Source of the DNA: Lawsonibacter asaccharolyticus
GTDB taxonomy: Bacteria; Bacillota; Clostridia; Oscillospirales; Oscillospiraceae
Length of the DNA stretch: 64,000 nt
NCBI GenBank assembly: GCA_003112755.1
Contig: BFBT01000001.1
Span: 2,108,001-2,172,000 of the forward strand
Direction: 5' to 3'
Shown: piece by piece, positions 27,809 to 41,585 of the stretch
Layout of the letters: every line of letters begins with the position of its first letter
Position numbering within the stretch: the first letter of the stretch is position 1
Translations under genes and position numbers: made by a program
The notes under the pieces: generated by a model
What the model was told of the DNA's origin: nothing
The model's database searches: none
What the model saw: the letters and a program-made list of their open reading frames with translations, nothing else

Positions 27809-27946
27809 TCAGGCTCCTTTGTATTTCCGTCGGGTGGCGATGCCGCCCCGGATATGCCGTTCCGCTTTGTTCTCCTCCAGCACGCCCTTGACCTGGAGAT
27901 AGAGAGGCTGGTTGAAGGCGGGAAGGCGCTCGGACAGGTCCTTATG
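27809..27946 (-). pseudogene. spoIIID: spoIIID, 3' part (interrupted by the mobile element)
   Basis: The minus strand reads H-K-D-L-S-E-R-L-P and on through ENKAERHIRGGIATRRKYKGA, which is the C-terminal half of SpoIIID (Bacillus subtilis: VHKDLTERLPEIN ... RHLRGGEATKLKYK). It has no start codon of its own and overlaps the recombinase stop codon. The partner half is at 41347-41461. Joined at CATA, the halves give an 82-codon gene; residues 38-82 come from here. SpoIIID is the mother-cell DNA-binding regulator that follows sigma-E and turns on sigK-dependent events. Confidence 0.93.
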
Positions 27947-27973
27947 TTTCGTCGTTACGAATTAGAACCGTTT
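27941..27973 (-). other. Left attachment junction with end repeat
   Basis: The minus strand reads GAAACATAAGGAC: recombinase codons, the CATA core (27946-27943), then host spoIIID sequence. The repeat TTAGAACCGTTT (plus strand 27962-27973) has its inverted partner AAACCGTTCTAA at 41322-41333. The recombinase stop codon TAA uses the last core bases plus one host base. Confidence 0.85.
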
Positions 27974-29477
27974 CGTCCAAGCCCAAATCACCGAACAGGC
28001 GCAGATAGATGTCCACATTCCCATCCTTGTCCACTTCGATCTTCTGGATGATCCGCTTGAGCTGGGCATTGGTCATCTGATGCACATCGGCAATGTCCTC
28101 GATCTCCTTGAAAGTCTGCTGCAGGACGCTTTCCAACTGCTCGCCCTTTGTCAGGTGGTAGGACACCATTTTCAGCTCGTTTTCCAGCCGTTCGATCTCT
28201 TTCCGCATCCCACCGATCCTGTCATTCAGCTCCTCACGGCTGATCAGATCATCAGCATACATATCCATGTATTTCTGGCGGGTCTTTTGCAGCTTGGCAA
28301 GTTGGGCGTTCAGTTCCTTTTCATAGTTCAGGTTTTCATCCTTTGCCTTATAGACCCGCTGGAATTCCCCCACCACATAGCGGATGACATTTTTCTTTGT
28401 TTTCAGTAGCCCGGCGAAATATTCCTGCAAAACCTCGATCAGTTCCTCCTCGTCTACTGTCACGGCGTTGGGGCAGTTGTCCGCCCCTTTGCCGTTGTGG
28501 CCAGAGCAGACCCAGCGCACATAAGTGTTCTTGTAGGTGCGCACCACCCGTCGGAAGGACCAGCCACACTCCTTGCACTTGATAAGAGTAGAGAACAAGT
28601 ATTTGTTGCTCTGTCGCTGTTTGTCTACCTTAAAGGCTCGTCCACGGGACTTCATGATCTGCTGGGCCTGCTCAAAGGTTTCCATGTCAATAATCTGGAG
28701 ATCCGGCCGCTCTACCACCATCCATTCTGATGCATCTTTATCCGCCCGCTGGCCGGTGAGAAAATCAGTCACTTCCTGTTTGCCGTTGATAATTTTTCCG
28801 GTATAAAGCTCATTGGTAAGAATGCGGCACACACCGTTCTGGCTCCACTGACAGTTGCGCTTTGTCCGCAGCCCCCGCTCATTGAGGAAAATGGATATCT
28901 TTGCCGCACCGTAGCCGTCTTTGATATACCACTCATAAATCTGGCGAACAACGGCGGCCTCCTCCTGGTTGATGGTCAGGTTGAAGTAGTCGCCGATGGT
29001 CTTGTCATAGCCATAGACAATGTTGGGGACTCTCCCCTTCTCAGCATTCATTTTCTTGCCAAATTTCACCCGCTTGGAGGTGTTGGCGCTCTCCTCCTGG
29101 GCCAGGGCCCCGAAGATCGTCAGCACAAATTCGCTGTTGCCCATGCTGGTCATGTTGGCGGTCAAAAACTGGGTTTCGATTCCCAACGCTTTCAGCTTGC
29201 GGACATTTTGCAAAAGGTCAACTGTATTCCGGGCAAAGCGTGAGATGTCCTTGACCACCACCATATCAAACAGGCCATGCTCCGCGTCTGACATCATCCG
29301 CAAAAACTCTTTTCGGTTTTTGATTTTTGTCCCGGAAATACCCTCGTCAGCATACAGCCGCACCAGGTTGTCCCCTGTGCGTTTGGTATATTCAGAAAAG
29401 AATTCCTTCTGTGCCTCCAAGCTATTAAGCTGATCTTCCTTGTCCGTGGATACCCGGCAGTAAGCGGCAATATTCAT
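27942..29477 (-). CDS. Large serine recombinase (site-specific integrase/excisionase)
   Basis: A 511-residue recombinase. Catalytic resolvase domain about 1-150 with Ser10 in AAYCRVSTDKEDQ and VVKDISRFARN; recombinase domain about 165-290; zinc ribbon CKECGWSF ... CSGHNGKGADNC; C-terminal coiled coil about 370-450. Such enzymes cut at a 2-bp core and integrate or excise DNA without homology. The gene ends exactly in the attachment core, so its stop codon is formed by host DNA; on the excised circle the frame would run 14 codons further (YGYNNLERFIWTIV, stop at 41304). It has its own promoter at 29520-29548 and GGAGAGG before the start. Confidence 0.95.
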   Translation of the reverse strand: MNIAAYCRVSTDKEDQLNSLEAQKEFFSEYTKRTGDNLVRLYADEGISGTKIKNRKEFLRMMSDAEHGLFDMVVVKDISRFARNTVDLLQNVRKLKALGIETQFLTANMTSMGNSEFVLTIFGALAQEESANTSKRVKFGKKMNAEKGRVPNIVYGYDKTIGDYFNLTINQEEAAVVRQIYEWYIKDGYGAAKISIFLNERGLRTKRNCQWSQNGVCRILTNELYTGKIINGKQEVTDFLTGQRADKDASEWMVVERPDLQIIDMETFEQAQQIMKSRGRAFKVDKQRQSNKYLFSTLIKCKECGWSFRRVVRTYKNTYVRWVCSGHNGKGADNCPNAVTVDEEELIEVLQEYFAGLLKTKKNVIRYVVGEFQRVYKAKDENLNYEKELNAQLAKLQKTRQKYMDMYADDLISREELNDRIGGMRKEIERLENELKMVSYHLTKGEQLESVLQQTFKEIEDIADVHQMTNAQLKRIIQKIEVDKDGNVDIYLRLFGDLGLDETVLIRNDET

Positions 29478-29519
29478 AGCAACCTCTCCGTTATTTTCAT
29501 ACCGTTCCGTTACATCGTT

Positions 29520-29548
29520 ATTCTACTATATGTTGTTTTAAATTGCAA
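29520..29548 (-). promoter_or_regulatory. Promoter of the recombinase gene
   Basis: Minus strand TTGCAA (29548-29543), 17-bp spacer, TAGAAT (29525-29520). A housekeeping-type promoter, with no sigma-E or sigma-K look. Confidence 0.6.
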
Positions 29549-29583
29549 CAACAAAAAGGGCACCCTTTTCACGCAGGATGCCC
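29548..29583 (-). terminator. Terminator after the 85-residue gene
   Basis: Minus strand GGGCATCC pairs with GGGTGCCC (29583-29558), followed by TTTTTGTTGTTG. The left stem arm includes the last codons of the gene. Confidence 0.65.
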
Positions 29584-29826
29584 CTCATCAATTTCTTCCT
29601 TCATATCTTTCAGCCCATCTGTGGCTGCCTGTATAGCGGACTGCACCTTTTCCTGATTTGCTTCCAACAGGATTTTCAAGATGTAGTCGGCGGTGGCTGC
29701 CGCTGGATTCGGGTTATGGAACTGATAATTTAATTTTCGTTTCTTCACAGCGGAGTCTCCACCTCCTTCCCGCTTGCACTGGTCTATCATTATGAAGGCC
29801 AGATCGAGAATAGTACTTTCCGCCAA
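29569..29826 (-). CDS. Small conserved mobile-element protein (unknown function)
   Basis: An 85-residue protein read from TTG (no ATG except an internal one); the frame is closed by TGA eight codons upstream. It has a helical, charged composition with a middle segment KLNYQFHNPNPAAATADYILKIL. I recall similar short proteins beside recombinases in clostridial elements but know no function; a directionality factor for the recombinase is one possibility. The exact start is uncertain. It lies between the relaxase and recombinase genes. Confidence 0.55.
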   Translation of the reverse strand: MAESTILDLAFIMIDQCKREGGGDSAVKKRKLNYQFHNPNPAAATADYILKILLEANQEKVQSAIQAATDGLKDMKEEIDEGHPA

Positions 29827-29859
29827 AATGTCTTTGGGGGCATCGTACGATCATAGCTG

Positions 29860-29976
29860 TCAGCTCATACTCTGCTGCCAGGTCGGTTCTCCTTCGTGAT
29901 CGTCCTCTTTGTGACCGAGGGCAATTTTCTTTTTCCGCTCCTGACGGAGCGTTTTCCGGTCGGTGTGCTGGTGCAT
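29860..29976 (-). CDS. Small basic mobile-element peptide (unknown)
   Basis: A 38-residue, strongly charged peptide (MHQHTDRKTLRQERKKK start, ending EPTWQQSMS) beginning 14 bases after the relaxase stop. The coding-like composition and position directly after the relaxase suggest a real gene; no function is known to me. Confidence 0.5.
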   Translation of the reverse strand: MHQHTDRKTLRQERKKKIALGHKEDDHEGEPTWQQSMS

Positions 29977-29990
29977 GGTGGTGGCATCCC

Positions 29991-31169
29991 TTACGGGATC
30001 AGAATCTTGACCGCGTTCCAGAGAGCGGCCAAGCCGGACCAGACCGTTTGCAAGACCACCATACCCACCATAGTCCCCAGCAAAATCAGGGCCAGCCATA
30101 CCATGACCGACATCGCGGTTCCCAGACTGGGAGGAGAGATAGAGAATTCTTTCTTCTTCCCAGCCTGTCGCAGCAGCGCCTGTATCCCCGCCACATCCCG
30201 CGCCAGGGCCTCCATCTGGGACTGAGTGAGGCATGGCTCCCTCCGGCTGGAAACCTCCCGCAGAAGGGCTGTGTGGGCCGCTGTGTGCTGCTCCAGCTCG
30301 TCCAGCCGATGGAGCCCTGCCACTCCTCTTTGCTGGGACAGGCTTGGGTTGGTATCGGCTGCGGAGCGTTCCTCCGCTTCAATTCCTCCATGGGCAATCG
30401 CTGCCCGGATTCTGAACTCATGTTCCATAACCTCCTTTGTGTACTTCTCCTCGTGGAGCCGGTCGTCCCGACACTTCATTCCCGTGGGCGTGGTGTAGGT
30501 GATACTCTTCCGGCTGTCCGTCCACCGCACCTGATACCCCTCGCTCTCCATCAGGGAGATAAATTCCTCCTTGCTGGCAGCGTACCGCATACACTGGTCG
30601 ATGGTGTTCATGAGACGGAATTTCCAGCTCTCGCCCTTGGCGGCGGAGCGGTACTCTCTGGTGCTCATCCGCTTTTGCTTGACCTGCTTCTGCGGTGGCG
30701 GAAGGATCTCCAGACCGTGGGCAACGCAGATTTCATCGTTGGCTATCCGGTGGGCCTGCAGGTCGGCGGCACTTTGATGGAGTTTCTTGCCGCTCTGGAA
30801 GCTCACACTGTTCACCACCAGGTGATTGTGGAGATGCTCTGTGTCCATATGGGTGGCCACTAACACCTCGAAGTTTGGAAACTGACGCTGGGCCAGTTCC
30901 AGCCCAATAGCGTGAACTTCCAGTGGGGACAGGTCATCCTGCTTGTCAAAGGACTGCACGAAATGATAGTACTGTCTGCCATCTGTCTTATGGAACCGCT
31001 CCTTGGTGAGCTGCATTTCGGAGCAGACACTTTGGGCGGTGCAGTTCCAGCCGGAGACAAGTCGACGATCTTCCCATGTGGTTTTCTCCTCCTGCTGGAC
31101 ATAGCGCAGAACACCGCCCAGAGCACCTCTGCCACCGCCACGATTTTTGATTGCGGTGAAGGTTGCCAT
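29991..31169 (-). CDS. Relaxase/mobilization nuclease (MobA/VirD2-type)
   Basis: A 392-residue relaxase. The N-terminal nuclease domain has the histidine triad THMDTEHLHNHLVVN (residues 107-116 hold the metal-binding HxDxxHxHNH). A candidate catalytic Tyr lies near the start (YVQQEE or RQYYHF). A coiled-coil middle (about 270-340) and one C-terminal membrane helix (about 355-380) follow. It nicks DNA at oriT and leads the strand into a recipient through another element's secretion system. It begins one base after the mobC stop. Confidence 0.92.
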   Translation of the reverse strand: MATFTAIKNRGGGRGALGGVLRYVQQEEKTTWEDRRLVSGWNCTAQSVCSEMQLTKERFHKTDGRQYYHFVQSFDKQDDLSPLEVHAIGLELAQRQFPNFEVLVATHMDTEHLHNHLVVNSVSFQSGKKLHQSAADLQAHRIANDEICVAHGLEILPPPQKQVKQKRMSTREYRSAAKGESWKFRLMNTIDQCMRYAASKEEFISLMESEGYQVRWTDSRKSITYTTPTGMKCRDDRLHEEKYTKEVMEHEFRIRAAIAHGGIEAEERSAADTNPSLSQQRGVAGLHRLDELEQHTAAHTALLREVSSRREPCLTQSQMEALARDVAGIQALLRQAGKKKEFSISPPSLGTAMSVMVWLALILLGTMVGMVVLQTVWSGLAALWNAVKILIP

Positions 31170-31170
31170 C

Positions 31171-31485
31171 TCAAGTCACCTCCCGCAGCAGCTCCCGGAG
31201 CTGTTCATAAATTTTTCCGTAGTTTTCTGCCAGTGCGTCACCCTTCAGAACTGTTACCCTCCCCATGTTGGCCAGGGTTGTGAGCTGATTCAGGTTTCGC
31301 CCCTGTGCTTTCAGTTCAGACAGCACCTGTTCCAGCCCTTCCACCCGCACGATCTCTTTTGCCAATCCGCTGTAACACAGGTAGTCGGTGACCGTCAGGC
31401 CAGCGGCTTTGGCACGCTCCTGGATGGTCTCCTTGGTACGAGGTGTCACCCGCAGGGTAATGATTTCCGACTTTTTTATCCTCAC
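31171..31485 (-). CDS. mobC: MobC-like relaxosome accessory protein
   Basis: A 104-residue protein. It has a ribbon-helix-helix-like N-terminus (KKSEIITLRVTPRTKETIQERAKAAGL, quoted here as the strand IITLRVTPRT and helix KETIQERAKA) and the MobC core ELKAQGRNLNQLTTLANMG. It helps the relaxase open the origin of transfer. It is coupled to the relaxase gene. Confidence 0.88.
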   Translation of the reverse strand: MRIKKSEIITLRVTPRTKETIQERAKAAGLTVTDYLCYSGLAKEIVRVEGLEQVLSELKAQGRNLNQLTTLANMGRVTVLKGDALAENYGKIYEQLRELLREVT

Positions 31486-31830
31486 AATTTGTACCTCCTT
31501 TCGTCCTTCGTCTCAGCCAAACGAAAGCCCAGCACAGCACCCGCAAGGGGTACGCCGCATCCGTAAGGCAGCAGAGCTGCCAACGGCTGCGCAGCGGGTT
31601 TCGTTTGGAGAGGAGACGCAGTGTAGCGAGTGAACCCTGCCGTTGGCGGCGGGGTGAACGATATGAAACTTGCGTCGACGACGGGGTACGGGGCAGCGCC
31701 CCGAAACTGTGCATGGCGTATAGCCGGGCGCGATGCTTGCCCTCCCCAAAGGGAGGAATTTGCGCCGACGGGGCCTCCCTCCTCAGGGCCTTCATTGGCA
31801 GAAAGGGAAGACTGCAAGGATGCAAAGCCT
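31486..31830. other. 345-bp non-coding region with stacked inverted repeats; candidate oriT
   Basis: CCAAACGAAAGCCC (31517-31530) is inverted as GGGTTTCGTTTGG (31596-31608), enclosing GGCAGC-AGA-GCTGCC (31567-31581). GGGGCAGCGCCCC lies at about 31690-31702, and CCTCCC/GGGAGG repeats lie at 31741-31782. Placed directly upstream of mobC-relaxase, it is where the transfer origin is normally found. No nic sequence was recognised with confidence. Confidence 0.45.
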
Positions 31831-32811
31831 TTAGCTTGTTACATCCTTACACCCTTGCTCCGGCAGACGCCAGTACCACTGATTGCCTTGCTTTTCTGAT
31901 ATGACCCCCAGATTTTTCTTGGCGATCATCAGCGTCCGTTCCGATACATCCAAATCTTTTGCTCGATTCAGAACGGCCTCAGCAGACATGGGAGTTATGA
32001 GCATCCGCCTTAATGCGTCCTCCATCTGAGTAGTTTTGGTATGAAGCTTTCCGCCTCCACCCAGCACATCATCAACAGAGAGATCGCACGCACCTTTCCA
32101 AAGAAAGCCATGTTCTTCATCCAGTTGAAACGCAATGGACTTTCCTTCCGGGGCCAGGCTGTTTTTATCTTGGGCTACGATCCGGATGGAGGGATCTTCT
32201 TTCAGCCGGCCCACCACCAGTACACTTCTGGCTGCTGCCCGGAAGTCGATGGAGCCAAGTCCACGATAGCCGGCTTTTAATCCCTGGGCTTTGTTCATGT
32301 GTCCGATGAGAATTACTCCACAGCCTGTGCGTTCCGCCATTCCTGCCACCCGTTTCAGAATGGGACGCACTTCGTTGGCCCGGTGCATGTCCACATCGTT
32401 TCCCAAATACGCTTGGATCGGATCCAGTACAATGAGCTGTGCGCCAGTCTGATGAACCGCCTGTTCCAATCGCTCGTCACTGAGAGTCAGTTCCTGCTGG
32501 CTCTCATCAATCACCAGCACCCGGGAACAATCCGCTCCGGCAGCCTCCAGCCTGGGCTTAATGGTATCCGCCAGCCCATCTTCCGCTGTCTGGTAGATTA
32601 CATTGATCGGTTCCAGCGCCTGTTCAGTCTCCGGCAAGGCCTCGCCACAGGTCAGTGCCGCAATAACCGCCAACACAAAAGTAGTTTTACCTTCGCCGGG
32701 GTCTCCCTGAACGATCGTCAATTTCCCTCGGGGGAGATACGGGTACCAGAGCCACTTCACCTCCTCTGCCTGAATCTCTTCCATAGAGAACAGTTTCAAA
32801 TCATGTTTCAT
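31831..32811 (-). CDS. RepA-like AAA ATPase/replicative helicase of the mobile element
   Basis: A 326-residue RecA-fold ATPase (AAA_25) with Walker A GDPGEGKT (36-43), Walker B AQLIVLDPIQAYLG and the sensor segment VILIGHMNKAQG. The C-terminal 80 residues look like a winged helix (MSAEAVLNRAKDLDVSERTL). Proteins of this type are hexameric RepA helicases or primase-linked ATPases of plasmids and integrative elements; they could copy the excised circle. It stands upstream of the oriT-like region. Confidence 0.85.
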   Translation of the reverse strand: MKHDLKLFSMEEIQAEEVKWLWYPYLPRGKLTIVQGDPGEGKTTFVLAVIAALTCGEALPETEQALEPINVIYQTAEDGLADTIKPRLEAAGADCSRVLVIDESQQELTLSDERLEQAVHQTGAQLIVLDPIQAYLGNDVDMHRANEVRPILKRVAGMAERTGCGVILIGHMNKAQGLKAGYRGLGSIDFRAAARSVLVVGRLKEDPSIRIVAQDKNSLAPEGKSIAFQLDEEHGFLWKGACDLSVDDVLGGGGKLHTKTTQMEDALRRMLITPMSAEAVLNRAKDLDVSERTLMIAKKNLGVISEKQGNQWYWRLPEQGCKDVTS

Positions 32812-32887
32812 TCTGCGTTCACCGCCTCAATCAAATTCGATATTATTTTTTGTATCTTTATTATCTAATTTTATGGTAGCATACTTC

Positions 32888-32916
32888 TTGACTTTTGAAA
32901 ATAGGTAATGTATAGT
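32888..32916 (+). promoter_or_regulatory. Promoter of the DUF6076 gene
   Basis: TTGACT (32888-32893), 17-bp spacer, TATAGT (32911-32916). It covers the upstream ATG at 32908 and so favours the start at 32971. Confidence 0.6.
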
Positions 32917-32970
32917 TTTAATACATACACTATATTGCTTCAATTAGATTCTCTACCGGAGGGAACTGCC

Positions 32971-34047
32971 ATGGCTGTCCTGGGGAAAGACATATTTGAT
33001 CTTTATCGCCCCCACACCCACACCAAAATTCAGTTTGGGGATAAGGGCTACTGGGTGGAGTGGGATACTGACTGTCTGCCTTACGGATCAATCCTCACAG
33101 AGATCCTCAACTGCAGTATCACTGATTACTGCGCCAAGCTGTCTGCTGTGGAACAGTCCGTTGCCGCCCGTGACCCGGAGCAGTTATCGGAGCGGCTGGA
33201 GGCGCTGGTGCGTGCCTTTATGAAGCTGCCGCTCTATCGGCTGTATATCCTGGAGCCGGGCGCTATTGAGCCGGCTTTGGTTTGGAAATCGATTGAAGCA
33301 GGACGGCATTCAGATCTGATTGCTGAAACGCTAAAAGACCCGGACGCATTTCTGTTGAAATACATCCGGGCCAGAGACGACATTTTATATATTCAAGAGC
33401 GCTACGGCTGGTTTCTGGAGTCCCTGTTTGAGGGCCAGCCATTTGAAAAGAAAAAAGGCCAGAAGAAGATTCCTCTGGCCCAGCAGCTGACAGATCATTT
33501 TTTGGAAGCTCTGGTCAGCGGCGTTAGCTTAGGGGAGGATAACCAGATCGATGCTCCTCAGGTGAACATTCAGTACGCCGTACTGGAGCCGGAAGGTTGC
33601 CAACCGGAACTGGTGGAAAAGATGTACTTTGACCGTCTGTTGGACTTCGTCTATGTGGAACTGATGCGCGGGATGCAGAAGGGCTTTGTCCCTAAACGCT
33701 GCGCCAATTGCGGCCGGTGGTTTCTCCAGTATCCAGGAGCTACCTATGCTTACTGTGATGGACCGGCCCCCGGTCAGGAAGATAAAACCTGCCGGGAGAT
33801 CGGCGCGACGGCCAGTTTTCAGGAGAAGGTGCGCAACAACGAGATCTGGAAGCTGCACCAACGGGCCTATAAGAAGTACTTTGCCCGCACACGCAAGGGT
33901 ACCATGAGCAAGCCGGAGTTCGAGAAATGGGCCCGGGACGCGGAGCGATTGAGAGATCGGGCGCTGAAGAGCTATGAAATATCACGGACACTTGAGGAGA
34001 AAAACCGGATTCTGGACAAATTGAAAGCGGATCTAAATTGTGTGTGA
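32971..34047 (+). CDS. DUF6076-type mobile-element protein with C-terminal zinc-finger
   Basis: A 358-residue protein. The C-terminal part holds a CGNR-like treble-clef pattern (RCANCGRWFLQ, then YCDGPA and TCREIG), followed by a helical segment EKVRNNEIWKLHQRAYKK. This layout is usual for DUF6076 proteins of clostridial mobile elements; no role is established, and RNA or DNA binding is a guess. GGAGGG lies 8 bases before the ATG at 32971. It is transcribed away from repA. Confidence 0.7.
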   Translation: MAVLGKDIFDLYRPHTHTKIQFGDKGYWVEWDTDCLPYGSILTEILNCSITDYCAKLSAVEQSVAARDPEQLSERLEALVRAFMKLPLYRLYILEPGAIEPALVWKSIEAGRHSDLIAETLKDPDAFLLKYIRARDDILYIQERYGWFLESLFEGQPFEKKKGQKKIPLAQQLTDHFLEALVSGVSLGEDNQIDAPQVNIQYAVLEPEGCQPELVEKMYFDRLLDFVYVELMRGMQKGFVPKRCANCGRWFLQYPGATYAYCDGPAPGQEDKTCREIGATASFQEKVRNNEIWKLHQRAYKKYFARTRKGTMSKPEFEKWARDAERLRDRALKSYEISRTLEEKNRILDKLKADLNCV

Positions 34048-34115
34048 ATAAGAGCTTTTTCAAAGCAAAATAAAAATAGTTTTATCGGAAAGTATAATGA
34101 AAAGGTTCTTGTATA

Positions 34116-34144
34116 TTGCACATATTTAGGTCTCGGAATATAAT
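34116..34144 (+). promoter_or_regulatory. Promoter of the LysR-type regulator gene
   Basis: TTGCAC (34116-34121), 17-bp spacer, TATAAT (34139-34144). Confidence 0.6.
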
Positions 34145-34252
34145 ATCTGTTAGAATTCTATGATGTAATTACGAAGAATACAGTAATGATAGATGGGCAT
34201 TTTAATATATATATTATTTGCAGCAAGGCTGCATGACTACGGAGGATCGTAT

Positions 34253-35146
34253 ATGAATTTGCAGCAGTTACGGTATTTTCATAAAATAGCAGCCCTAAAG
34301 AATTATACCAAGGCCTCCGAAGAATTATTTGTGGCACAATCTAGCCTTAGTCACTCCATGGCGAAATTGGAGCATGAATTGGGGGTACCTCTTTTTATTA
34401 AACAGGGGCGTAACATTGTGGTCACCTCTTACGGTGAGAATTTTGACAAACATGTTGCCATTATTTTGAGAGAACTGGAACTTGCCAAAAACGAAATTCA
34501 ACAAGCATCTAATAAATCTCAAGGAACTGTTAGACTCACTGTCTCTCACACCTTGCACCACCATTTTCTTCCCAGCCTAATGAAGCAGTATAAAAGCATT
34601 CCCGAGTTTGAAAAAGTGCAATTTCAAGTCAGTGATCTAGAGTCCACAGCAAGCGGAATCGCACAGATGGCAGCTAGGGAAGTTGATCTGGGGTTTGGGG
34701 CAAAAGTTGAACAAGCAGGGTGTTGCTACTTTGAAGTTATGAGTGAGGAACTGGTGGCAGTGGTTCCAATTAATCATCCTTTTGCTCAAAAAGAGAATAT
34801 TACAATGCAGGAATTGCGCCAAGAACCGCTGATCACATACAACCATAAGTGCGGTACCCGTTACGACTTAGAACACTTTTTTCATAAATATGGAGTATCC
34901 CCTCAGCAAATTTTTGAGGCACAAAATGAAAAAATGATTGCAAGTATGGTTTCGGCAGGAATTGGAGTTGGAATAATACCTCCGATTCAAGAGATTGGGA
35001 TGTATCAGGTTGCGGTAGTACCGCTGGAAAATCATAATATGAAGCGGTCGCTGTACATGTTCTGGCTGGAAGAAAACTTTCGTCCTCCTGTTGTAGAATC
35101 ATTCCGCAAGTTTGTGATCCGTACTATTCAAAACAAAAATATTTAA
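34253..35146 (+). CDS. LysR-family transcriptional regulator
   Basis: A 297-residue LysR regulator: winged helix at 1-60 (MNLQQLRYFHKIAALKNYTK, recognition helix SSLSHSMAKLEHELGVPLF) and a type-2 periplasmic-binding-like effector domain (about 90-290). GGAGGATC precedes the ATG. It is the first cargo gene; base composition changes to AT-rich here. It is separated by its own terminator from the six-gene catabolic operon that it probably controls from the 219-bp gap at 35147-35365. Confidence 0.92.
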   Translation: MNLQQLRYFHKIAALKNYTKASEELFVAQSSLSHSMAKLEHELGVPLFIKQGRNIVVTSYGENFDKHVAIILRELELAKNEIQQASNKSQGTVRLTVSHTLHHHFLPSLMKQYKSIPEFEKVQFQVSDLESTASGIAQMAAREVDLGFGAKVEQAGCCYFEVMSEELVAVVPINHPFAQKENITMQELRQEPLITYNHKCGTRYDLEHFFHKYGVSPQQIFEAQNEKMIASMVSAGIGVGIIPPIQEIGMYQVAVVPLENHNMKRSLYMFWLEENFRPPVVESFRKFVIRTIQNKNI

Positions 35147-35157
35147 TACCGTCTATG

Positions 35158-35203
35158 AAACCCCGGAATGTTTGCCTCTAAGGTATGCATTCCGGGGTTT
35201 TAT
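35158..35203 (+). terminator. Terminator of the LysR gene
   Basis: AAACCCCGGAATG (35158-35170) pairs with CATTCCGGGGTTT (35188-35200), followed by T. Confidence 0.8.
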
Positions 35204-35365
35204 GCACAAAAATCTCCAGTCCTTCAGGTATGTATTTTGAGCATATTAGCATGTCAAAATGGCAGTTTTTTTTTGCGCTCTAATCATTTAATATAAAATT
35301 GTAATGAAACAAGAGACAGTATTTAGTCAAAATTAAAAATAAAAGTCTGAGGAGGTAGATGAAGG

Positions 35366-36121
35366 ATGATACATTCCCGTTATTCGGATAAGGTCGTCTT
35401 GATTACAGGCGGCGGAGGTATGGGAAGAGCGGCAGCACTCAGGATTTTAGACGAATCAGGAAAAGTTGTTTTAACGGACTGTTCGCCGACAGTTTTAAAA
35501 AATCTGGAGCAAGAATTTGATGCAATGGGCTATTCTGATCGAATCTTATTCCTTCAGTCGGATGTACGGCAGTACACGGATTGCTGTGCGGTTGTACGGC
35601 ATGGAATCGAAGTCTTTAAAAAAATAGATGTCTTAGTAACAACTGCGGGTATTTTAAGGCACCATCCCATTGACGAGTTAACAGAGGACGATTGGAAAGA
35701 TGTCATAGACATCAACTTAACTGGTACATATCATTCCGTAAAATCTCTGATTGGTCATATGAAAGAGCGTCGATATGGAAGAATCGTTTTGATCTCGTCG
35801 ATCGGAGGAAGAACCGGTCGTCCAGGTGTAGGCGTTAATTATGCCGCAGCAAAGGGCGGCATTGTTGGCATGACACAGCTTCTGGGCTTTGAACTGGGGC
35901 CTTGGAACATAACGGTGAACTGTGTAGCCCCAGGTCCGATCGGCGGAGGAATGTTTGCCTCTCTTCCGGCAGAGAACCGGGAAAAACTTTTGCAGGGAAT
36001 TCGCTTGGGGCGTATTGGAACATTCGAAGATGTGGCGTCTGCAATTGCATATCTAGGGAGTGATGATGCTTCCTGGACAACAGGTGAAGTTTTGGATGTA
36101 AACGGCGGTCTCCAGTATTAA
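35366..36121 (+). CDS. Short-chain dehydrogenase/reductase
   Basis: A 251-residue classical SDR. Nucleotide-binding TGGGGMGRAAA, TTAG in place of NNAG, catalytic Ser in LISSIGG, YAAAK (Tyr/Lys pair) and the C-terminal DVNGGLQY. Oxidises or reduces a hydroxyl/keto group with NAD(P). GAGGAGG lies 10 bases upstream. First gene of the cargo operon SDR-isomerase-TRAP-dehydrogenase; with a second dehydrogenase at the end it probably works on a sugar acid or polyol taken up by the TRAP system. Confidence 0.92.
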   Translation: MIHSRYSDKVVLITGGGGMGRAAALRILDESGKVVLTDCSPTVLKNLEQEFDAMGYSDRILFLQSDVRQYTDCCAVVRHGIEVFKKIDVLVTTAGILRHHPIDELTEDDWKDVIDINLTGTYHSVKSLIGHMKERRYGRIVLISSIGGRTGRPGVGVNYAAAKGGIVGMTQLLGFELGPWNITVNCVAPGPIGGGMFASLPAENREKLLQGIRLGRIGTFEDVASAIAYLGSDDASWTTGEVLDVNGGLQY

Positions 36122-36141
36122 TTAGCATAGGAGGAATTATT

Positions 36142-36945
36142 TTGAGCCATAAATATTCTCTTGTACATTTAACCTGTATTTCATGTCCTCCGCCTGAGTT
36201 CATTCGGACGGCGGCAGCAGCTGGTTATGATTATGTTAGTCTCAGAACGATACCCATGGGGCTGCCCAATGAAGTTCCACATCTGCTCACAGACCGTGTA
36301 CTCTTGAAAGAAACAAGGGCGGCCAGTTTAGAAACCGGTGTGAAAATTAATGATACCGAAAATGCCAGAATTTTTGACGGAGTAAATGTACAGGAGTATG
36401 CGCCACATCTAGCTGCCGCTGCAGAACTTGGGATTAAACATATTTTATGTAATGTTTGGACAGCAAACCGCTCTTTTTATACAAAGAAATTTGCCGAACT
36501 GTGCCAGTTAGCCGCACAATTTGACCAAGATATTAATTTAGAATTTGTCACATGGGCTGGTATTACGAATTTAGAGCAAGCTGCCCAGTTGCTGAGAGAT
36601 GTTGATCTACCGAATGTTGGCATTGTAGTGGATGCACTACATTTCCATCGCTCCAGAGTTAAGCTGGAAGAATTAGAATCATTACCCAAAGAGTGGTTCC
36701 GCTTCATGCATCTGTGTGATGCCGTTCAGGAGATTCCAACTGATCTAGATGTCTTGGTACATGATGGTCGGGAGGAACGTCTCTATCCGGGAGAGGGAGC
36801 GATTGATCTCAAGGGAATTTTGTCCAAGCTTCCAGAAAATATTGTTCGGGGAATTGAGATACCGCACAGTGTTCGCACAGCAGAAATCGGATTTGAGGCG
36901 CATGCACGCCGAGCCCTGGAGTACGCAAAAAAATACTTGGAATAG
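36142..36945 (+). CDS. Sugar phosphate isomerase/epimerase-type TIM barrel protein
   Basis: A 267-residue xylose-isomerase-like TIM barrel (AP_endonuc_2 fold). Metal-ligand candidates are Glu in NLEFVTW, Asp-His in GIVVDALHFHRS, the His-Asp pair in FMHLCDA and the final Glu in RGIEIPHS. Relatives include inosose isomerase/dehydratase, hydroxypyruvate isomerase and 2-keto-sugar epimerases. TTG is the start, with TAGGAGG upstream; no ATG fits. It lies 20 bases after the SDR gene. Confidence 0.85.
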   Translation: MSHKYSLVHLTCISCPPPEFIRTAAAAGYDYVSLRTIPMGLPNEVPHLLTDRVLLKETRAASLETGVKINDTENARIFDGVNVQEYAPHLAAAAELGIKHILCNVWTANRSFYTKKFAELCQLAAQFDQDINLEFVTWAGITNLEQAAQLLRDVDLPNVGIVVDALHFHRSRVKLEELESLPKEWFRFMHLCDAVQEIPTDLDVLVHDGREERLYPGEGAIDLKGILSKLPENIVRGIEIPHSVRTAEIGFEAHARRALEYAKKYLE

Positions 36946-36966
36946 AGTAAAGAACGGAGGTGGACC

Positions 36967-37458
36967 ATGAAAATTATAAAATGGCTCGATAAGAATTTGG
37001 AAGTTGCTCTCATGATCATTTCTCTGTTAGTCATCGTTTTTGTTATGGGGGCTCAAGTCGTTGCCAGGAAATGCCTCGGTATGTCAATTGAATGGTCGGA
37101 GGAGCTGGGACGGTATTTATTTGTTTGGATGGGCTTTTTAAGCATTAGCTATACCATACATGCTAAGAGCATTATTAGATTAGAGATTTTTAACGCAATT
37201 TTGCGTCCGGCTATTTTGAAGGTTATAGATATCGCCGTACAGATTTTTATGCTGGTCATATTCGTATATTTAACATATCAGTCCCTCTCGATTTTAAGTA
37301 CCACCGCTCAGCGTTGGTCCAGCATTAACCTTTCCATGAATTATGTCTATGCGGCAATTCCGGTCGGATTCGCACTGACTTCTCTGCGCTTGGTGGAAAA
37401 CATTCTGCAAGCACTGTTAGCGTGTGTGAAAAAAACAACGGAAAAGGACGGTGAATAA
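36967..37458 (+). CDS. dctQ: TRAP transporter small membrane subunit (DctQ)
   Basis: A 163-residue, four-helix protein. The conserved segment IEWSEELGRYLFVWMGFLS identifies DctQ. It forms the membrane complex with the large subunit whose gene begins one base after its stop. TRAP systems import organic acids, sugar acids or related anions with Na+. Confidence 0.92.
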   Translation: MKIIKWLDKNLEVALMIISLLVIVFVMGAQVVARKCLGMSIEWSEELGRYLFVWMGFLSISYTIHAKSIIRLEIFNAILRPAILKVIDIAVQIFMLVIFVYLTYQSLSILSTTAQRWSSINLSMNYVYAAIPVGFALTSLRLVENILQALLACVKKTTEKDGE

Positions 37459-37459
37459 A

Positions 37460-38746
37460 ATGTTAGGAATAATTTTTGGCGCAATGGTTGTCATGCTGAT
37501 CCTGACCGTTCCCATTGGCGTTATGCTGCTGGTTGTATCGTTGATTCCCAGCCTGATTTCTCCGGGATTTTCTGCCTCAATTCCTTTTGTTTTGAGAAAT
37601 GTAGTGGGAGGATTAAACAGCACTCCATTACTTGCAATCCCGCTGTTTATCTTGGGTGGTATCATCATGGCACAGAGCGGCATTGCAGAAAAATTGTTTG
37701 ATGTTTTCGCATACTTGATCGGAAATAAAACAGGAGGCATGCCTTGCGCCTCTATTATTACCTGCTTATTTTATGGTGCTATTTCCGGTTCGGCTCCAGC
37801 CACCACTGCTGCTGTAGGTACGATGACCATTCCCATTTTGGATGACCTGGGATATGATCATACTTTTAGTGCCAGTACTGTAGCAGTTGCAGGTGGCCTG
37901 GGGGTCATCATTCCTCCGTCGGTTCCGTTTATTGTTTATAGTATGGCCAGCGGAGCCTCCGTAGGAGATATGTTCCTGGCAGGAATCATTCCCGGATTTC
38001 TCATTGCGGCATGTCTAATGATCTATGCTATCTTCTACTGCAAAACCAAAGGGGAAAACAAGCAGCTGATTCATCAGCGCGTTTCCGAACTTAGAGCTAA
38101 GGGATTTTGGGGAGTATTGAAAAGCAGTTTTTGGGCGCTGTTGTCTCCCATTATCATCTTGGGCGGGATTTACGGTGGTATCGTTACCCCTACCGAGGCA
38201 GCCCTAATCGGAACCTTTTATGCTACCGCAGTCGGTCTTTTTGTTTATCGGACCTTAAAACTGAAAGACCTGCTTCCTTTGTGCGCGGAAGCTGTGAAAA
38301 CTACAGCTCCGATGCTTCTGGTATTGGGCACGGCTGCTGCTTTTTCCAGAATTCTTTCTTTGCTACAGGCTTCGGATGTGGTACTTTCCCTTGCGGGCGG
38401 ACTGGTCCATAATAAGTTCTTACTGTTGCTGGTACTGAATATCTTCCTGCTGTTTATGGGGATGATCATTGATACTTCGCCCAATATTTTGATTTTTACG
38501 CCGGTCATGCTGCCTCTTGTCAGCGCGGTGGGAGTCGATCCTGTTCATTTCGGAATTATCATGGTGGTAAATTTGGCCATTGGGTTTGTCACACCTCCGG
38601 TGGGTGTGAACTTGTATGTAGCGCAATCGCTCTCCGGCGTTCCTGTGGCCAGTTTGGCGAAAAAAGCTCTGCCTTACATGGTAATGTTTTTTATCGCATT
38701 GATGCTGATTACATATATCCCAGCGATCAGCACGATTTTACTGTAA
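37460..38746 (+). CDS. dctM: TRAP transporter large membrane subunit (DctM)
   Basis: A 428-residue transporter with about 12 helices. DctM signatures: SGSAPATTAAVGTMTIP, GGLGVIIPPSVPFIVYS, GGIVTPTEAALIG and GFVTPPVGVNLYVA. ATG at 37460 is preferred over the GTG at 37451, which overlaps the dctQ end. It performs the Na+-coupled translocation step. Confidence 0.95.
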   Translation: MLGIIFGAMVVMLILTVPIGVMLLVVSLIPSLISPGFSASIPFVLRNVVGGLNSTPLLAIPLFILGGIIMAQSGIAEKLFDVFAYLIGNKTGGMPCASIITCLFYGAISGSAPATTAAVGTMTIPILDDLGYDHTFSASTVAVAGGLGVIIPPSVPFIVYSMASGASVGDMFLAGIIPGFLIAACLMIYAIFYCKTKGENKQLIHQRVSELRAKGFWGVLKSSFWALLSPIIILGGIYGGIVTPTEAALIGTFYATAVGLFVYRTLKLKDLLPLCAEAVKTTAPMLLVLGTAAAFSRILSLLQASDVVLSLAGGLVHNKFLLLLVLNIFLLFMGMIIDTSPNILIFTPVMLPLVSAVGVDPVHFGIIMVVNLAIGFVTPPVGVNLYVAQSLSGVPVASLAKKALPYMVMFFIALMLITYIPAISTILL

Positions 38747-38811
38747 CAAGTAGCCTTCAAGAGCGTGTTAAGCTCGAAAAAACTAATATTAATTTTGAAG
38801 GAGGATCAACT

Positions 38812-39867
38812 ATGAAAAAGAAATGGATCTGTGGATTGCTTGCAGCGGCAATGATACTTTCTCTCACTGCGTGCAGCGGGGGGACGACTTCCAATGCTGG
38901 TAGCAATGCCGACGCATCGGGCTCCGAATTACCTGAAATGACTTTTTCCATTGGGCACACAGGAACTGAAGACTCCTGGAACCACGCCATGTGCCTGCGC
39001 ATCAAAGAAAAACTGGAAGAGTACAGTGGCGGGAAGATTACAGTAAACATTTTTCCTAATGGACAGATGGGCAGCGACTCTGAGATGATTCTAAGCGTCA
39101 TTCAGGGTGATATGACGATGCAGTGTACAAATACTGCCTCTGTAACCAATACAGTTGCCGACTGCGGCGTTGCCGATCTTCCATTCCTCTTTGACAATGT
39201 GGAGGATATCAGAACCGCCCTTTCAGACGAAACCTTCGATTCCCTGCTGAAAGAAAAGTTTGTGGAGCAGAATCTGGAACTGCTGGTAGTGGCAGATCAG
39301 GGCTTCCGCTGCATCACTACCAACAGAGAAATTAAAAGCCCGGAGGATTTGGCCGGTATGCAGATGCGCGTACAGGACAATCCCAACCATATTGAATTCT
39401 GGACAGATGCCACTTTGGCTCCCACACCCCTGGCATTTTCTGAGCTGTATCTGTCCCTCCAGCAAGGATTGCTGGAAGCACAGGAGAATCCTTATCGTAC
39501 AACAGTGGCCTCCAAATTCTATGAGGTTCAGAAGTATGTGACAAATTCCAACCATGTTCCCCAGTGCAATGTGATTTTCATTGGAAAATCCACATTTGAT
39601 GCTTTGCCTGCGGAATATCAGGAAATGATCATGCGGGTTTCTGAGGAATTGCTGCCTTATTCCCAGCAAGTTGCGGATGAGTCCAACGCAGATGATCTGC
39701 AATTCCTTCAGGAGCAGGGAATGACTTTTATTGACTTCGATCAGATTGATGGCATGCGTGAGTTCTTGAGGGATGCTACTCTGGATAAGGCGATTGAGCG
39801 TATGAAAGAGAGCATTGACCCTGAATTGTTGGATGCGTACCTGAAAGCTGCCGGTTATTCATCTTAA
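38812..39867 (+). CDS. dctP: TRAP transporter substrate-binding lipoprotein (DctP)
   Basis: A 351-residue extracytoplasmic binding protein with a lipoprotein signal (LTAC, Cys at about 21). DctP features: FPNGQMGSDSEMI, the carboxylate-binding Arg in DLAGMQMRVQDNP, and YLSLQQGLLEAQENP. The kept Arg indicates a carboxylate ligand. AAGGAGGA precedes the start. Confidence 0.94.
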   Translation: MKKKWICGLLAAAMILSLTACSGGTTSNAGSNADASGSELPEMTFSIGHTGTEDSWNHAMCLRIKEKLEEYSGGKITVNIFPNGQMGSDSEMILSVIQGDMTMQCTNTASVTNTVADCGVADLPFLFDNVEDIRTALSDETFDSLLKEKFVEQNLELLVVADQGFRCITTNREIKSPEDLAGMQMRVQDNPNHIEFWTDATLAPTPLAFSELYLSLQQGLLEAQENPYRTTVASKFYEVQKYVTNSNHVPQCNVIFIGKSTFDALPAEYQEMIMRVSEELLPYSQQVADESNADDLQFLQEQGMTFIDFDQIDGMREFLRDATLDKAIERMKESIDPELLDAYLKAAGYSS

Positions 39868-39881
39868 ATGGAGGCTATGAT

Positions 39882-41066
39882 ATGTTTCAGAAAAAAACTG
39901 TAACCATTGGTACGATCGGTGCTGGCTATGCGGCAGGACTTCACGCAAGTGGATTTCAGCGTGTTTGTGGACTGGAAATCCGTCTGAAGACGATTTGTGA
40001 TGTTCGACTGGATGCCGCAGAGAAAGTCAAGGATTCGTTTGGATATGAACAGGCAATCTCCGACTATGAGGAAATGCTTTCAGATCCGGAAATTGATGTG
40101 ATCGATATCGTGACTCCTCCGTTTCTCCACTGTACAATGGCTATTCAAGCGCTCCAAGCAGGGAAGCATGTGATCTGCGAAAAGCCACTGACCGGATATT
40201 TCGGACAGAAAGGCGAACTGAATGTAGGTAAGAACACACCTAAATCTGTCATGTACCGGGAAGTCATGCGGGACATGGACAGTCTGAAAGCCGTGGTAGA
40301 GAGTAGCGGAAGAAAGTTTATGTATGCGGAAAACTTTGTCTATGCGCCGCCAGTGCAGCGTGCGGCCCAAATGCTTCGAGCAAAGAAGAGTAAGATTTTA
40401 TATATGCGCGGAGAATTGAGCCTTAATGGTAGCAGTTCTCCCTTGGCTGGAAAATGGAGCGGGACTGGCGGCGGAATCTTAATGCGAAACGGCTGCCATC
40501 CAATTGGCGGAATGCTTTGGCTAAAGCAGCAGGAGGCAAAAGCGCGGGGAGAAAATATCCGGGTGACCAGCGTTGTAGCGGATTGTGGTGTGACCACTGA
40601 CTGCCTGCTGCCAGAAGATAAGCGTCATCTTCTGGTAAAGCCTGAGGATGTGGAAGATTACAGTAATGTAACGATCACATTTTCTGATGGAACGAAAGCG
40701 TTGGCCATCGCTTCGGACACCGTATTGGGAGGCTCGCAAAATTATATCAATGTATACAGCAGTGACAGTGCTCTTGTATGTAATATTACTCCAACAAATA
40801 TGCTTGAGAGCTATTTTATGGATGACGATGGCTTGGAGGATATCGAAATTTCGCAGTTCATGAAGCATAAAACTGGGTGGAATAAAGCTTGGGTCAATGA
40901 TGAATTTGTCCGTGGTTATACTGGCGAACTGCAGAATTTTATGGACTCGATCGCATATGACATGATTCCGGATTCTGGATTCTCACTGGCGTACGATACA
41001 GCACGCATTGTATATGCAGCTTATCAATCGGCTGAGGAGGGAAAAAGAGTAAACCTAGATTGCTAA
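39882..41066 (+). CDS. Gfo/Idh/MocA-family oxidoreductase
   Basis: A 394-residue NAD(P)-dependent dehydrogenase. Rossmann motif GTIGAGYAAGLHASG, VTPPFLHCTMAIQAL, the catalytic CEKPLTG, and NGCHPIGGMLW with the His of the family. It oxidises a hydroxyl of a sugar, sugar acid or inositol. It is the last gene of the cargo operon and ends before the terminator at 41171. Confidence 0.92.
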   Translation: MFQKKTVTIGTIGAGYAAGLHASGFQRVCGLEIRLKTICDVRLDAAEKVKDSFGYEQAISDYEEMLSDPEIDVIDIVTPPFLHCTMAIQALQAGKHVICEKPLTGYFGQKGELNVGKNTPKSVMYREVMRDMDSLKAVVESSGRKFMYAENFVYAPPVQRAAQMLRAKKSKILYMRGELSLNGSSSPLAGKWSGTGGGILMRNGCHPIGGMLWLKQQEAKARGENIRVTSVVADCGVTTDCLLPEDKRHLLVKPEDVEDYSNVTITFSDGTKALAIASDTVLGGSQNYINVYSSDSALVCNITPTNMLESYFMDDDGLEDIEISQFMKHKTGWNKAWVNDEFVRGYTGELQNFMDSIAYDMIPDSGFSLAYDTARIVYAAYQSAEEGKRVNLDC

Positions 41067-41170
41067 CAAGAAATCTGGCGTTTGGCAGTTTTATTAAATA
41101 CTAGGTCTTCTTTTTATTCCAATATATACTCTTAAAGTTATACGAATATACGAAGTATAAAATTTTAATG

Positions 41171-41215
41171 AGCCTCCTGTGCGGCGCAAACGAAATGCAA
41201 CGCACAGGAGGCTCT
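41171..41215 (+). terminator. Terminator of the cargo operon
   Basis: GAGCCTCCTGTGCG pairs perfectly with CGCACAGGAGGCTC. From here to the element end at 41350 nothing codes except the 14-codon recombinase tail used on the circle. Confidence 0.8.
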
Positions 41216-41321
41216 CTAATTCATATGGCAGCTTTAAAATATATTCCCAATAGCCCCCTGGTTAGCGGGCGCTCTTACAATCTTATATCTATTTTTTAGT
41301 CAGTTAAACTATCGTCCAGAT

Positions 41322-41350
41322 AAACCGTTCTAAATTATTATATCCATATG
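41322..41350 (-). other. Right attachment junction with end repeat
   Basis: The minus strand reads GGTCCATATGGATATAAT: host spoIIID up to CATA (41350-41347), then element sequence. AAACCGTTCTAA (41322-41333, plus) is the inverse of the left repeat with one mismatch. The rejoined host site would read GGTCC-ATAA-GGACC, a dyad centred on TA, as expected for a serine-recombinase attB. Confidence 0.85.
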
Positions 41351-41461
41351 GACCGTGGACTTGCTGATCCCGAACTTCTGTGCCGCCGCGCGGACCGTGG
41401 TCCGGTTCTCTATGATGTAAAGGGCCAGCTGACAGGCCCGTTCCTCGATATTCCCTTTCAC
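41347..41461 (-). pseudogene. spoIIID: spoIIID, 5' part (interrupted by the mobile element)
   Basis: From GTG at 41461 (GGGGGAG 10 bases upstream; GTG is also the start in Bacillus subtilis) the frame reads KGNIEERACQLALYIIENRT and on to KFGISKSTVH, the N-terminal half of SpoIIID including the first helix and the turn of its HTH. The element cuts in the recognition helix. Without excision the frame runs into element DNA and stops at 41330 after five foreign residues, so no working protein is made. The 3' half is at 27809-27946. Confidence 0.93.
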
Positions 41462-41499
41462 ACAGCAACAACTCCCCCGGATTTTGCATCTGCTGTACA

Positions 41500-41528
41500 T
41501 GTATATGCGGGGGAGAGGATTTTATGAG
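41500..41528 (-). promoter_or_regulatory. Sigma-E-like promoter of spoIIID
   Basis: Minus strand CTCATAAA (41528-41521), 13-bp spacer, CATATACA (41507-41500), close to the mother-cell sigma-E pattern (GKCATATT / CATACAMT). Start of transcription near 41493, about 30 bases before the GTG. Confidence 0.5.
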
Positions 41529-41585
41529 GCCGGAAATGCCTCGACTGGAAGAATTTCCCGATGAAGGCCCAGTCGTGGAGAGGAT

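Follow-up and report, generated by a model that had tools for sequence, protein, structure and literature searches.

The spoIIID gene of Lawsonibacter asaccharolyticus is split by a mobile serine-recombinase element that is probably excised at sporulation

In Clostridioides difficile, the sigK gene is split by the skin element, whose recombinase is made constitutively from a sigma-A promoter while its directionality factor is made from a sigma-E promoter, and excision is predicted to take place in the mother cell only (PMC5025042). We describe a 64,000-nucleotide stretch of Lawsonibacter asaccharolyticus DNA (assembly GCA_003112755.1, contig BFBT01000001.1, positions 2,108,001 to 2,172,000; called the window, in whose numbering positions without a contig label are given) in which spoIIID, a gene acting in the mother cell (PMC517825), is interrupted by a 13.4-kb mobile element. 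Like the C. difficile skin, this element combines a split mother-cell regulator with a large serine recombinase and a small candidate factor, which we call KL, and its plan is predicted from sequence. It differs in that its target gene precedes sigK in action, that KL belongs to no known family, and that the element is mobilisable rather than prophage-like; moreover, the C. difficile factor CD1234 requires SpoIIID (PMC5025042), which KL cannot do in a first round of excision. The layout appears to repeat the C. difficile plan, with another element and a regulator that acts earlier. We think it probable that the element's own recombinase excises it in the mother cell at sporulation, rebuilding spoIIID, while spores keep the split gene.

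Other precedents differ further. In Bacillus subtilis, the skin element and SP-beta in spsM are of phage origin, and a serine recombinase with a factor rebuilds the gene in the mother cell; SP-beta shows that an active phage can reside in a sporulation gene (PMC4191935, PMC6957869). The genes involved are others, however, and the skin recombinase SpoIVCA is under sigma-E and SpoIIID control, whereas the window recombinase looks sigma-A driven. The gin element of Bacillus cereus ATCC10987 (PMC5595907) is a non-phage island that, as here, splits a very small mother-cell transcription-factor gene, gerE, with its overlap inside the coding region and with a serine recombinase and small factor. Yet gerE is late, and gin has three recombinases, measures 28.6 kb and is described from one strain, whereas the spoIIID element is a many-species family. 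The yin element of Clostridium botulinum (PMC10747680) likewise brings an insertion, a recombinase and a predicted directionality factor to a sporulation gene, but that gene, yabG, is a late sigma-K gene, not spoIIID, and one strain is concerned. A Clostridium pasteurianum phage carrying a spoIIID gene is a different matter (PMC5027557). The open literature that we searched describes skin, spsM, gin and yin and no spoIIID element; most subscription papers and all preprints fall outside that literature, leaving priority unproven.

The 5′ part of spoIIID (41347-41461, minus strand; residues 1-38 from a GTG start at 41461, PF12116 positions 2-40) translates to VKGNIEERACQLALYIIENRTTVRAAAQKFGISKSTVH, and the 3′ part (27809-27946, minus strand; residues 38-82, PF12116 positions 34-80) to HKDLSERLPAF...RRKYKGA. 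The gene, of 82 codons, is interrupted at the CA of a His codon (…STV-H|K-D…). Core to core, the insert is 13,404 bp long, with a GC content of 48% against 62-64% in the flanks. Fused at their common CATA, the halves give one 82-residue SpoIIID in frame with an unbroken helix-turn-helix, the in-frame joining of a split mother-cell gene being a mark of skin-like elements. Aligned with intact relatives, the joined sequence reaches up to 83% over the junction, and its best match is gapless.

A sequence-only reading of the window had proposed this in-frame split, and the sequence confirms it: a PF12116 profile search of the whole genome (7 contigs, 4.28 Mb) returned only these two pieces, both above the family cut-off and both on one 3.5-Mb contig. 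A second intact spoIIID, which would have spoken against that reading, was sought with the same profile over the 4.28-Mb genome and is absent. Relatives, as the reading had suggested checking, do have the gene intact at the empty site: spoIIID is full length in 32 of 36 congeners, three have no match, and one (G017; G, C and L numbers are our labels for genomes, contigs and loci) has the 3′ part alone, adjoining a relative of the window recombinase.

That recombinase, a predicted integrase/excisionase of 511 residues (27942-29477, minus strand; Pfam Resolvase, Recombinase and Zn_ribbon_recom; PHROG 95 integrase), abuts one junction as the reading had stated, and its stop codon TAA is the TAA of CATAAGG. 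We followed its relatives through three samples: 60 related genomes; 394 genomes of the order, including the window genome, with recombinases counted at E<=1e-100; and a GTDB scan with one genome per species, in which 379 recombinase relatives were found and the best 80 (79-97% identity) were kept and all examined. Among the 60 relatives, recombinases adjoin the spoIIID 3′ part in G052 (96% identity), G017 (85%), G044 (73%) and G049 (68%); the next-best, in G026 (49%), is located elsewhere, and spoIIID is whole in that genome. The recombinase was found in 23 of the 394 order genomes and adjoins the spoIIID 3′ part in 16 of the 23, at identities down to 43%. Five of the others have a whole spoIIID, G084 has no spoIIID match, and in G106 (L205, G106:C10:1-14000) the break in spoIIID falls at the same codon, the recombinase (43%) lying by the 5′ part in place of the 3′ part.

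The best 80 of the 379 GTDB relatives behave alike. In 76 of the 80, the recombinase adjoins a spoIIID 3′ part, which lies at most about 160 nt downstream in 75 and is cut by the contig end in L167; L158 stops at the core, and L120, L130 and L147 are at other sites. These three may mark secondary attachment sites, that of L130 lying inside what looks like a transposase-type frame. The half-genes are open in all cases that could be read at the GTDB loci (75/75 3′ parts, 44 codons read; 15/15 5′ parts, 36 codons read). The recombinase itself is under strong purifying selection (median dN/dS 0.033 over pairs). The same kind of spoIIID split is present in scores of other gut species, and carriers include Blautia massiliensis, B. 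glucerasea, B. schinkii, Extibacter muris, Schaedlerella arabinosiphila, Agathobaculum butyriciproducens, Flavonifractor sp. An82, Pseudoflavonifractor phocaeensis and Angelakisella massiliensis. With the same junction and a related recombinase at 76 of the 80 retrieved loci and in 17 of the 394 order genomes, the probability that the split is an assembly artefact or a single-strain pseudogene is negligible; many independent assemblies show this split beside a homologous recombinase, which excludes both chance and errors of assembly.

Several loci depart from the common form. At L186, two spoIIID 3′ parts lie 2.6 kb apart downstream of one recombinase. At L128, L160 and L165, the core is followed by Met (CAT/CAC-ATG) instead of the usual Lys, as on the element side, possibly an imprint of strand exchange. 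Seven other half-length spoIIID matches occur in the order set: in G115 and G254 the 5′ part bears the element arm, the gene is split in G205 and G243 too, G238 looks frameshifted, G362 is at a contig end, and G053 completes the group.

The attachment sites can be read from the junctions. attL (41309-41356, minus strand) consists of the spoIIID side, a CA overlap and an element arm (…TAGAACGGTTT…), and attR (27937-27978, minus strand) of an element arm (…AACGGTTCTAATT…), the CA overlap and the spoIIID side. The arms, ACCGTTCTAATT-n4-ACnACCATA and TAyGGTnGTnAnnAAATAGAACGGT flanking CA, are conserved and form a pair of inverted repeats. A further feature shared with skin-like elements is the presence of att sites at the ends together with a large serine recombinase. 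The overlap named in the sequence-only reading, CATA, stands for this locus, but only CA is common to all loci, and one relative has CAC.

Both arms also occur joined. Four IMG/VR contigs (50-119 kb) carry the recombinase (72-73% identity), KL and a predicted attP, whose att sequence is identical in three of the four. On L214, three of five proteins tested match phage tail, DNA polymerase and endolysin families, and one of two tested on L217 matches endolysins. A scan of IMG/VR with the attP pattern returned three contigs only, all among those already found. As these contigs combine joined arms with phage proteins, the att system appears to be shared by phages, and the joined ends predicted for the element do occur in nature. 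Searches of plasmid records with the recombinase gave one match (33%), and phage records gave two (55% and 32%). We did not accept the 55% match as a phage, as the record is 6.4 kb long, has a spoIIID 3′ part next to the recombinase and looks like chromosomal DNA.

Besides the recombinase, one other gene recurs. KL, a protein of 50-60 residues without a name, has 59 residues in the window (KKRKLNYQFHNPN...; 29569-29748, minus strand). When open reading frames (ORFs) of 83 elements were clustered, KL was the one gene common to most (67/83). A motif search found it at 68 of the 80 GTDB loci and in 4/4 further elements, and a profile added L152 and L168; eight of the ten loci that remained have less than 1.7 kb of DNA upstream. 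Among the 60 relatives, KL is present in exactly the five genomes whose recombinase adjoins spoIIID. In the order set, it occurs in 14 of 17 split genomes versus 3 of 377 others (Fisher P 2e-20), the 377 including the seven genomes with half-length spoIIID, of which G115 and G254 show an arm and no KL. The three non-split genomes with KL all belong to one genus. In two, G294 (L235) and G309 (L237), a KL-like piece lies right before whole spoIIID, in G294 within a single 173-residue frame; these pieces are possibly remnants of a lost element. In the KL genes of L135, L144, L145, L156 and L173, no ATG, GTG or TTG stands at the expected spot, and an ATA or ATC start is possible. None of 98 KL homologues has an informative name, although PF14471 is assigned to two, and the predicted structure is a two-helix model with a mean pLDDT of 81.6. 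We regard KL as a candidate recombination directionality factor for the recombinase: it is tied to the split and has a sigma-E-like motif upstream. Skin-like elements are expected to carry such a factor under mother-cell control, a role that KL may fill.

That motif emerged when 69 KL upstream regions were aligned on CATA alone: a second box, kmcTATTTT, appears at a fixed distance, its TA lying 17-18 bases before CATA (1.62 bits each), with an unconserved spacer and then TTTTCATAG..TGG. The sigma-E consensus is KMATATT-N14-CATACANT. The KL boxes agree with it at 6/7 -35 positions and have equal spacing; in the window, the predicted KL promoter is TACTATT-N14-CATA (29786-29816, minus strand). 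Downstream of the KL -10 box we also saw a GGACAAAG-like stretch, which is not used as evidence. TATT-N11-16-CATA occurs in 47 of 69 KL upstream regions, 4 of 79 recombinase upstream regions and 294 of 13,856 random control windows, and the stricter KMnTATT-N14-CATA in 32/72 KL upstream regions versus 40/27,703 controls. In C. difficile, sigma-E and sigma-K share a -10 box and differ in the -35 box (ATA and AC, respectively; PMC3789822). As the KL box also contains AC, it may be recognised by sigma-K instead. By eye, similar boxes (CTCATAtc...GCATAGgATgG) precede whole spoIIID in relatives, so that KL and spoIIID look co-regulated; the putative sigma-E-like promoter of the window spoIIID (CCTCATAAAA...CATATACATG; 41498-41529, minus strand), also identified by eye, resembles them.

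The recombinase, by comparison, is preceded in the window by a predicted sigma-A-like promoter (TTGCAA-N17-TAGAAT; 29520-29548, minus strand), and sigma-A-like boxes occur in 40/79 recombinase but only 1/69 KL upstream regions. Between this promoter and the recombinase start lies a direct repeat of TAACgGAr that resembles an att half-site (AGAACGGTTT; 29483-29513, minus strand). TAACnGAr is present in 57 of 79 recombinase upstream regions, and the repeat may be an operator through which the recombinase represses itself. There is a likeness, too, to KRTAACARK, the SpoIIID box of C. difficile.

The data show a split whose halves join in frame, the att arms, recurrence across species, a recombinase-KL pair and the conserved promoter-like motifs of both genes; the mechanism that we propose would connect these findings. 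The recombinase would be made from its sigma-A-type promoter and, alone, would favour integration. In the mother cell, sigma-E would transcribe spoIIID and also KL, the latter from a similar promoter inside the element. KL would then bind the recombinase as a directionality factor and turn it to excision, the element would depart as a circle, and the SpoIIID helix-turn-helix would be restored at His-Lys. Restored SpoIIID would then act on its regulon. For the first round, KL would have to be produced without SpoIIID, unlike its counterpart CD1234 of the C. difficile skin element; that SpoIIID itself switches on KL was set aside for this round, since spoIIID is then still split.

The sigma-A-like boxes before 40 of 79 recombinases would also suit a bet-hedging switch, in which the recombinase alone flips the element in and out at a low level in all cells, the subpopulation with whole spoIIID sporulates and KL has a different role; excision that needs no directionality factor is known from serine recombinases such as TnpX. 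The link between KL and the split speaks against this, however, as do the promoter motif of KL, which is of the sigma-E and not the sigma-A type, and the need of most known serine integrases for a factor in excision (PMC3783163); together these make such a switch very improbable.

The element is also mobile in its gene content. In the window, it encodes a MobA/VirD2-like relaxase (29991-31169, minus strand; PF03432) and a NikA-like mobilisation protein (31171-31485, minus strand; PF21983), and no conjugation genes were found among the ORFs searched. Relaxase, mobilisation protein and integrase without a full transfer apparatus are what defines integrative mobilisable elements, and the gene content of the window element is that of such an element with metabolic cargo. 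Phage structural genes, expected of a prophage, were absent from the 13 element ORFs searched against Pfam and NCBIfam. Tn4451-type integrative mobilisable elements also combine a large serine recombinase, relaxase, mobilisation protein and cargo. They are not known to have a fixed sporulation-gene target, however, and the window recombinase is only distantly like TnpX (PDB 2mhc, E 8.4e-9, catalytic part). Across loci, element size ranges from 3.8-4.1 kb (L179, L162, L194) to ~35 kb (G175, G346). Recombinase, KL and att arms are all retained in the eight smallest of the 15 whole GTDB-locus elements (3.8-6 kb), among whose other ORFs, checked by eye, we recognised no mobilisation gene. The family appears to span ~4-kb elements, mobilisable elements and phages. 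Transfer between species has been recent: the element is 98% identical between L137 and L141, whose hosts are 76% identical, and 99% between L183 and L184 (hosts 74%).

Such mobility raises the alternative that spoIIID simply serves an ordinary integrative mobilisable element or phage as attachment site and is inactivated by it; carriers would then sporulate badly if at all, and excision would serve transfer only. The relaxase, mobilisation protein and metabolic cargo, the recent transfer, the free phage forms and the sigma-A-like recombinase promoter would all fit. An element of this kind would not account for the sigma-E-like promoter before KL, the sole other gene nearly always kept, nor for ~4-kb elements that retain recombinase and KL and have no recognised mobilisation gene. 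Selection on spoIIID also argues against it. In the pairs L135/L136, L160/L165 and L163/L172, the spoIIID 3′ part has 1 non-synonymous versus 14 synonymous changes. Host flanks and partly aligned elements are similarly diverged in these seemingly vertical pairs, from which we infer descent of a shared insertion; the 3′ parts of L150, L155 and L197 were left out of the pair values. The counts are small and consistent with spoIIID functioning while split. Host sporulation genes are retained as well: SpoIVA is present in 36/36 genomes tested, including 18/18 split genomes, and small acid-soluble spore protein (SASP) in 17 of 18 split genomes tested. We therefore consider the attachment-site explanation unlikely.

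SASP family matches are themselves in two pieces in some genomes (residues 1-28/31 and from 20/21), 36 kb apart in G051:C7 (L203, L204) and on separate contigs in G010 and G021. SASP is a forespore gene, and a split there would be a surprise.

Other observations weigh against excision in the mother cell. Because serine recombinases that excise without a factor exist (TnpX of Tn4451), excision could be constitutive and low-level. KL was not found at L175 and L176, where 5.9 and 3.6 kb of DNA lie upstream, nor in the split genomes G380, G198 and G106; it has no match in Pfam or NCBIfam at E up to 10, and its model has no fold match in the PDB. The simple promoter pattern is absent from 22 of 69 KL upstream regions, and the loci behind the promoter counts are related, so that those counts are not fully independent. 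Three of the 80 recombinases (L120, L130, L147) are outside spoIIID. Recent transfer means that open half-genes partly reflect young insertions. SpoIVA discriminates poorly, since three genomes that lack any spoIIID match have it too, and split genome G125 has no SASP match. Nothing decisive was found in papers on the sporulation phenotype of the hosts, and excision in the mother cell is inferred.

A second mother-cell gene is split in the same host. In the window genome, sigK is interrupted near its 3′ end by an insert of ~8.6 kb (G000:C1 ~473080-482327; L199, L242): the 5′ part stops at ...GISRSYV, VSRIEKRALEKLEQAMRE lies ~8.6 kb off, and a CTATGTAT is shared. By eye, a 546-residue serine recombinase directly adjoins the 3′ piece. 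Both spoIIID and sigK are also split in G395:C4, G118:C34 and G225:C21 (L200-L202), where the sigK gap again contains what is, by eye, a serine recombinase. Only 2/36 genomes reached the cut-off of the SigK model, and sigK splits were judged from partial matches, in the window genome from the sequence. In other genomes, sigK halves are broken at two further positions. A sigK likewise split in these four genomes is not what a mere attachment site in spoIIID would lead one to expect. The sequence-only reading of the insert as a skin-like, excisable element gains support from the recombinase clade, which is almost always located in spoIIID, the open half-genes, the conserved att arms, the small elements that keep recombinase and KL, the sigma-E-like KL promoter and the split sigK. 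That reading had noted neither the element's mobility, through relaxase, mobilisation protein and interspecies transfer, nor the candidate directionality gene KL.

Since the directionality factor of the C. difficile sigK element needs SpoIIID (PMC5025042), the double split suggests an order, spoIIID first and sigK second. We give even chances to a serial DNA-excision timer heading the mother-cell programme: sigma-E-driven KL would free the spoIIID element first, and SpoIIID, with sigma-E, would then trigger excision of the sigK element, in mother cells of many gut Clostridia, spread by a mobile family with phage, mobilisable and domesticated ~4-kb forms.

SpoIIID stands near the top of the mother-cell cascade, and programmed excision there, if true, would gate much that lies downstream. 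The family occurs widely among gut commensals whose sporulation matters for passage from host to host. KL is a candidate new family of directionality factors, and the recombinases are a group of serine integrases for which att sites are defined. For annotation, a spoIIID that is merely split may be called absent or a pseudogene and its host asporogenous. As one site is common to small, mobilisable and phage forms, the old question of whether such elements are parasites or regulators becomes testable.

The rest of the window element encodes an AAA_25 ATPase (31831-32811, minus strand; PF13481), which we take to be RepA-like, a DUF6076 protein (32908-34047, plus strand; PF19553) and, at 34193-41066 (plus strand), metabolic cargo consisting of a LysR regulator, a short-chain dehydrogenase, a xylose-isomerase-like protein, the TRAP transporter components DctQ, DctM and DctP, and an oxidoreductase. 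The cargo makes up a complete TRAP-type uptake and sugar-acid-like catabolic set.

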